Assembly (NCBI RefSeq): GCF_004298475.1
Contig: NZ_SCRP01000035.1
Span: 53,318-117,317 of the forward strand
Direction of reading: 5' to 3'
DNA length: 64,000 nt
Origin: Paraburkholderia sp.
Lineage (GTDB): Bacteria > Pseudomonadota > Gammaproteobacteria > Burkholderiales > Burkholderiaceae
Shown here piece after piece: positions 62,281 to 63,728 of this stretch; the first letter of the stretch is position 1, and each line of letters begins with the position of its first letter. Below the pieces are notes generated by a model. That model ran no database searches. It saw only the letters and a list, made by a program, of their open reading frames with translations, and was not told the origin of the DNA. The position numbers were made by a program, and so were the translations under genes.

Positions 62281-62700
<420 letters not shown>

Positions 62701-62716
62701 GCCGTCCTCATTACGC

Positions 62717-63201: not shown

Positions 63202-63495
63202 GCGCCTGCCTCCGACCGGTATCTTCGATTCAGACGGCAATTGTAGCCCGCACGCCGTGCGCTCGCCCGGGGCGGCATGCAGGCGGCGGCGCGTGCGGCC
63301 TGACAGATTAGGGCGGCGCGAAATCCTGAAAGTCTGCTGGATTCCCCTGGTCGCGTTAGGGGCTTGTTGCCGGCATCGGCATGTCATGTACGGCCTGCAC
63401 TGTTGTAAGCGCATGATTCTTAATTAAATCCCGAATGCGCAGCAGTTCGTGCTTAATTTCGCATTATGGTGTTGTATTTTGTAATGCGGTTTTCC

Positions 63496-63524
63496 TTGCG
63501 CCACTTGGGGTCGACCCGTATAAT
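63496..63524 (+). promoter_or_regulatory. Sigma70-type promoter of the predicted sRNA
   Basis: TTGCGC (63496-63501), a 17-base spacer, and a perfect TATAAT (63519-63524). Expected start of transcription near 63531. Confidence 0.75.
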
Positions 63525-63530
63525 TCAGTT

Positions 63531-63624
63531 CATTGGTTGTCGTCCTCTACGACACCTCAGCATGTCTCCTCCACCCTCCTCAAAAGGTGGATTAAGCCCG
63601 AACACCGCGTTCGGGCTTTTTTTT
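63531..63624 (+). ncRNA. Predicted small RNA with anti-Shine-Dalgarno hairpin loops
   Basis: About 94 nt from the predicted start to the end of the terminator T-run. Hairpin 1: TGTCGT / ACGACA (63538-63554) with loop CCTCT. Hairpin 2: TCCACC / GGTGGA (63570-63591) with loop CTCCTCAAAA. Between them is CTCCTCC. Then an intrinsic terminator. C-rich CUCCU loops can pair with ribosome-binding sites, as in other Hfq-type sRNAs with two exposed anti-SD loops. No open reading frame with a ribosome-binding site is visible. It might instead be an attenuated leader of rplM, but the complete terminator and a second promoter downstream argue for an independent RNA. Confidence 0.65.
63594..63624 (+). terminator. 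Intrinsic terminator of the predicted sRNA
   Basis: Perfect 10-bp stem AAGCCCGAAC / GTTCGGGCTT with a 5-base loop, followed by a run of eight T. Confidence 0.93.
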
Positions 63625-63698: not shown

Positions 63699-63728
63699 TT
63701 GACGTCCGGATAATTTTCCCTTTATAAT
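63699..63728 (+). promoter_or_regulatory. Promoter of rplM
   Basis: TTGACG (63699-63704), 18-base spacer, TATAAT (63723-63728). It gives a leader of about 110 bases before the rplM ATG. Confidence 0.8.

Follow-up and report, generated by a model that had tools for sequence, protein, structure and literature searches.

The closest described relatives of the small RNA analysed here belong to the Rfam family RF02278 (Betaproteobacteria toxic sRNA), named for the toxicity of its cloned members, which inhibit the growth of E. coli (PMC5688073, PMC4603805). In the accessible parts of the published reports, B. cenocepacia J2315 shows four homologs called double-hairpin RNAs, ncS03, ncS05, ncS27 and ncS62, which contain CU-rich stretches complementary to ribosome-binding sites, and three homologs share an upstream motif (PMC5688073); the same four RNAs were found by transcription-start mapping (PMC4603805). 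ncS27 has 92 nt and is processed to a short form, its 3' end was confirmed by RACE, and growth is slower when it is overexpressed and faster when it is silenced (PMC5688073). A review states that ncS27 influences genes for the breakdown of phenylalanine and tyrosine and for carbohydrate transport, and that its overexpression attenuates growth on some substrates and not on others (PMC10987360). Four members of the family are reported in Herbaspirillum (PMC7011215). S17 of B. pertussis, described in a preprint as similar to RF02278 members, has a long form from which RNase E generates a 67-nt species that uses its 5' end to pair with ribosome-binding sites; S17 was co-precipitated with Hfq, acts on a set of genes, represses through its 5' end a sigma-54 activator, as proved by compensatory mutations, and is not similarly toxic in E. 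coli (PMC11722255).

Architecture and family of the osmC-rplM RNA

The window, the whole stretch of 64,000 nt of Paraburkholderia sp. DNA that was analysed, contains a small RNA locus between osmC and rplM, in a gap of about 645 bp, the length given in an earlier note on this DNA. Direct reading confirms the promoter, the two hairpins, the linker and the terminator that this note had placed there. Orthologs are counted in the osmC-linked set, 80 loci kept of at least 571 confirmed relatives. The locus shows the following features:

63460..63495, + strand: block conserved in the orthologs (ATTTCACATTATG..TATTTCGCAATGCAAAT), directly 5' of the -35 box, partly degraded in the window
63496..63524, + strand: sigma-70-type promoter TTGCGC-17-TATAAT, by direct reading (-35 TTGCGC 63496-63501, -10 TATAAT 63519-63524, 17 bases between them)
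63531..63624, + strand: predicted primary transcript of 94 nt, ncS27-like, from promoter spacing and terminator (ncS27 of B. cenocepacia, 92 nt)
63535..63556, + strand: leader hairpin 1, dispensable, with a variable loop (CCTCT at 63544-63548); the leader is present in 66/80 orthologs kept and absent in 14
63563..63624, + strand: RF02278 core, the presumed mature double-hairpin RNA (cmscan, 71.1 bits)
63563..63572, + strand: seed TGTCTCCTCC, predicted to pair with GGAGGAGACA; GTCTCCTCCA is invariant in 51 aligned sequences
63570..63591, + strand: hairpin 2, by fold, with the anti-Shine-Dalgarno (anti-SD) loop CTCCTCAAAA at 63576-63585
63594..63624, + strand: intrinsic terminator (stem 63594-63618) with T-run to 63624

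Folding of the 94 nt that start at 63531 gives -33.3 kcal/mol, where 200 shuffles give -18.0 (sd 3.2; z -4.83), and none of the 200 shuffles folds as well, which bears out the folded unit of about 94 nt claimed earlier. The promoter, called good in the earlier note, is so in part: the TTG of the -35 box is identical in 80/80 orthologs kept, but only 3/6 bases of TTGCGC match the consensus, and for this reason the promoter scan does not list it. The likeness of the ortholog -10 boxes is partly by construction, since these boxes were chosen by pattern. The linker CTCCTCC (63566-63572), described as a single strand, is unpaired at 63566-63569, whereas its last three bases, 63570-63572, belong to the stem of hairpin 2; in the predicted ensemble, 63564-63569 are unpaired at 0.93 or more. 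A small ORF across the core (ATGTCTCCT..) was rejected: its frame is broken by one-base length changes and several orthologs have no ATG.

The RF02278 match at 63563-63624 (71.1 bits, E 2.3e-12, model positions 1-64 of 64) is at full length, exceeds the gathering cut-off of 50 bits, falls in the Betaproteobacteria/Burkholderiales range of the family and starts exactly at TGTCTCC, 3' of hairpin 1. The analysis supports the earlier proposal of a trans-acting-type sRNA with an anti-SD sequence, its own promoter and its own terminator. The double hairpin, taken in the earlier note as hairpins 1 and 2, is a different pair in the published descriptions, where it corresponds to hairpin 2 and the terminator. 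The window sRNA belongs to a known family, already in Rfam, of which a close relative has been studied, and the remark that no gene call surrounds this copy hides both facts. Hairpins presenting CU-rich anti-SD motifs, as in the window sRNA, are also found in the Cuckoo / alpha-r15 sRNAs of Alphaproteobacteria. These belong to another class, and the Rfam scan of the whole window shows only two matches at gathering score, RF02278 and RNase P RNA. The latter (class A, 62281-62704, 294.5 bits) adjoins the 3' end of osmC.

The source genome contains three RF02278 copies: C10, C13, which is the window copy, and C25. RF02278 is present in all 97 genomes sampled from the genus, each of which has 3 to 10 matches, and in 137/150 genomes at the family level (133 over cut-off), the level at which the earlier note had proposed a search of Burkholderiaceae. 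At the order level it is present in 128/200 genomes (75 over cut-off), at the class level in 51/185 (two over cut-off, one of them the source genome) and in the control genomes in 0/14. G082 and G240 show 10 and 9 matches, respectively, and three of those in G240 lie within about 4 kb.

On the basis of its size, leader and family, the window sRNA is most likely the Paraburkholderia ortholog of ncS27. Both belong to the same Rfam family and contain CU-rich anti-RBS stretches, and the predicted 94 nt of the window copy, which extend 5' of the RF02278 core, compare with the 92 nt of ncS27; the osmC-linked copies of Burkholderia have 91-92 letters. As published, ncS27 is the long, processed one of the four in J2315, and the window copy is the only leader-bearer of the three here. 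The expression and processing of ncS27 were measured, whereas the window copy is known from its sequence and is likened to ncS27 by length, leader and family. In 80/80 loci kept, the sRNA lies upstream of osmC and on the opposite strand; J2315, with ncS27 at BCAL3348a/BCAL3349, is not among these loci. The closest osmC relative among the matches listed belongs to a Paraburkholderia MAG (99%).

The locus thus very probably encodes an RF02278 double-hairpin sRNA, most likely the ncS27 ortholog, with its own promoter upstream of rplM and its own terminator, whose 3' 62 nt would be the active part, whose seed and loop would pair with ribosome-binding sites and lower translation, and whose leader would be processed off where it is kept. 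Family membership, conservation, presence or absence of the leader, promoter spacing and complementary sites at start codons come from the present analysis; expression, processing, growth effect and target repression come from published relatives; transcription, processing, Hfq and targets are what we infer for the window copy.

The leader hairpin and its absence

Two alignments were used: A1 contains 51 sequences and omits identical rows, L115 and L122; A2 contains 28 rows, from L083 onward, and omits L115 and L122, which have longer leaders, and the window clade, L059-L082, which shows a bulged stem in another register. In A1, the seed GTCTCCTCCA is invariant, and CTCCTC is retained in the loop of hairpin 2. 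Hairpin 1 has a stem paired in 94.6% of the cells (28 sequences), with one pair changed on both sides in 6/28 and another that appears as UG, UA and CG. In the terminator stem, two pairs show two-sided changes, one in 9/28 sequences and the other in 5/28. The covariation of hairpin 2 gives no test because its stem hardly varies. Over the complete structure, the paired cells, the cells changed on both sides and the covariation score are better than in each of the 500 shuffles; the number of pairs with two-sided changes shows no excess (3 observed, shuffle mean 2.6, 324/500), nor do further pair types (266/500 shuffles). The true structure pairs 97.9% of the cells and slid structures pair 30-49%. 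A masking of the seed by the leader was considered and rejected: in the predicted ensemble, the unpaired probabilities are nearly equal with and without the leader, and the first bases of the seed are unpaired in both cases.

In the leader-bearing orthologs, 66/80 loci kept, GTCTCC follows the -10 box at a distance of 36-47 nt. In the 14 leaderless orthologs, the -10 box lies exactly 7 nt before GTCTCC in every case, and therefore their transcripts would start at the seed; this predicted start coincides with that of the core, the position at which processing to RF02278 length would also place the 5' end. Thirteen of the leaderless orthologs belong to the Caballeronia clade and the fourteenth is a Paraburkholderia locus (L120); among the loci kept, the leader is present in Burkholderia, in most Paraburkholderia and in six members of the Caballeronia clade. 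In a tree of osmC and rplM, which contains 74/80 rows and has no outgroup root, the leaderless state needs two changes, both forced by well-supported branches. Two losses of the leader are the simplest reading, since Burkholderia, most Paraburkholderia and those six Caballeronia-clade loci keep it. Among the papers listed, none joins Caballeronia with RF02278 or ncS27, and a description of the missing leader was not found in a literature coverage short of the 2019 ncS27 paper (doi 10.1099/mic.0.000848).

The paralog loci are the 55 best-scoring ones of the genus and family scans (L004-L058), taken by score and not by random draw. A -10 box is recognised in 50 of them and in five none is recognised. 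All 50 scorable paralogs are leaderless, with the -10 box 8 nt before TCTCC, equal to 7 nt before GTCTCC. Within the source genome, C10 and C25 show, like the window copy, the seed GTCTCCTCC, a hairpin and a terminator; they differ from it in having no leader, a -10 box 7 nt (C10) or 6 nt (C25) before GTCTCC, and a seed unit present twice in tandem. In the paralog L017, the seed unit TGTCTCCTCC is present three times in tandem, and the other paralogs displayed have two. Among the copies examined, the leader is confined to the osmC-rplM type, and the leaderless orthologs share the layout of the paralogs.

The new piece, within this literature coverage, is the absence of the leader in some orthologs together with the promoter spacing of the paralogs. 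An explanation to which we give an even chance treats the leader hairpin as a maturation cassette that can be detached. Leader-bearing copies would need cutting to free the 5' end of the seed, and two lineages would have lost the leader so precisely that transcription begins at the seed, the arrangement of the paralogs examined. Selection would then act on the 5' end of the seed, whether a cut or the position of the promoter produces it, and the leader would provide a further level of control, through the processing rate or a 5'-monophosphate end, which the leaderless lineages no longer have. Leader-bearing and leaderless species offer a ready natural comparison for the purpose of the processing step.

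Predicted targets and mode of action

The seed is predicted to be accessible and is complementary to ribosome-binding sites. The pattern GGAGACA-N2..9-ATG gives 80 rows genome-wide, corresponding to 79 distinct sites, and the reversed pattern gives five; in the window, GGAGACA-N-ATG shows one match with 0.55 expected. In 464 kb of the source genome, with starts predicted by a home-made gene finder, GGAGACA is the commonest of the 16 GGAGNNN words at starts (9/294, next 5), and in another way of counting the same words it has 7/76 against 5. This lead is modest, and part of the same signal may come from GGAGACA being a favoured ribosome site of the lineage. Four of the 29 GGAGACA loci displayed (three sites) stand before frames of fewer than 30 codons.

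Two sites of the source genome bear GGAGGAGACA: one before a GAF/sigma-54 activator (L142, PF00158) and the other before a periplasmic binding protein of branched-chain-amino-acid type (L143, PF13458; NCBIfam PRK15404 below cut-off). At the second of these, 12 bases match and the duplex is predicted at -25.8 kcal/mol. Across the genus, GTGGAGGAGACA-N2..10-ATG is present in 31/97 genomes, once in each, and a control pattern keeping GTGGAGGA shows six matches in 5/97 genomes. Thirty of the GTGGAGGAGACA sites were fetched: 25 precede a plausible gene and five do not, one of these five being the antisense of an sRNA copy. The 12-base GTGGAGGAGACA, to which the sRNA seed is complementary, is found at the ribosome site of mtnK (methylthioribose kinase) in eight genomes of the genus (L202, L204, L208, L214-L217 and L221), with 2/8 checked by TIGR01767, and at that of maiA in four genomes, with one checked by TIGR01262; the remaining mtnK and maiA names rest on near-identical N-termini. 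Altogether, 20 protein names were checked by NCBIfam, five of these also by Pfam. The predicted targets include the sigma-54 activator, the amino-acid-binding protein, maiA and mtnK, and published relatives point likewise to a sigma-54 activator and to aromatic-amino-acid breakdown (PMC10987360, PMC11722255). Complementarity alone names no targets, since an anti-SD sequence complements many ribosome sites.

In the proposed mechanism, transcription of the sRNA would start at a promoter of its own, upstream of rplM, and stop at its own terminator, and the 5' hairpin would be a leader removed by processing in the species that keep it, the promoter of the leaderless lineages acting directly on the seed. 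Within the active 3' 62 nt, the single-stranded 5' end UGUCUCC(UCC), aided by the CUCCUC loop, would pair with GGAG(GAG)ACA ribosome-binding sites of mRNAs whose products take up and break down amino acids, aromatics and sugars, lowering their translation when nutrients run low. Hfq probably takes part; the window copy shows a 3' U-run, and S17 was co-precipitated with Hfq. S17 matches this proposed scheme in a long form cut to a short one, a 5' end acting on ribosome-binding sites and a sigma-54 activator target, and differs from the window copy in a primary transcript of 190 nt, a locus beside coq7 and the control by BvgA (PMC11722255). RF02278 is a widespread anti-RBS sRNA of Burkholderiales which, in the accessible published work, ties the nutrient state to uptake and catabolism.

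Alternative readings and the upstream block

The sRNA lies near rplM on the same strand, and an rplM start is recognised beyond it in 74/80 loci kept (572-1103 bp from the osmC start), an arrangement that would also suit a 5' leader or attenuator of rplM, starting at 63531, whose terminator decides rplM expression. Such a role is very unlikely, given that rplM shows its own promoter-like TTGACG-18-TATAAT at 63699-63728, 3' of the sRNA terminator, and that the minimum-energy and centroid folds of the 94 nt give one stable fold and no competing antiterminator. Moreover, none of the 55 paralogs has a recognised rplM start in the 1.5 kb that follow it, and ncS27 has the 3' end confirmed by RACE (PMC5688073).

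It is unlikely, too, that the RNA is a general anti-SD decoy or toxic RNA that masks many ribosome-binding sites and has no specific target set. The family owes its name to toxicity in E. coli (PMC5688073, PMC4603805) and its CU-rich sequence fits the core present in any strong ribosome site, but the conserved seed exceeds the SD core, with UGU preceding CUCC, and GGAGACA is the commonest of the GGAGNNN words at predicted starts. The published effects are also selective: ncS27 overexpression attenuates growth on some substrates only (PMC10987360), and S17 affects a gene set in which one target was proved by compensating mutations (PMC11722255). Hardly credible is a function in which both hairpin loops are active anti-SD sites, the architecture proposed in the earlier note. 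The loop 1 bases are CCTCT in the window and CCTCG in L059, the nearest relative among the matches listed, but in the 67 leader-bearing sequences this loop is GCT in 21, CTT in 18 and CAGTT in nine, besides others, CTC is found in two, and CCTCT is found in 1/67, the window only, so that CCTCT was rejected as a conserved anti-SD site. The leader itself is absent in 14/80 orthologs kept and in the 50 scorable of the 55 paralogs. This extra anti-SD loop is close to private to the window and, since the loop varies, it is unlikely to matter. The preferred reading remains the RF02278 sRNA acting through its seed and the loop of hairpin 2.

The block directly 5' of the -35 box resembles a regulator site and is a candidate operator, judged from its conservation: in the 80 loci kept, the mean majority-base frequency is 0.71 at -60..-42 and 0.87 at -41..-24, relative to the -10 box, and further upstream, at -160..-61, it is 0.43-0.47. 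Within the window, TTGCGNCGCA shows no excess. The 35-bp block of the orthologs holds two similar stretches, TTTCxCATTATG and TTTCGCAATGCAAAT, and TGCGNCGCA is counted in 33/80 loci kept.
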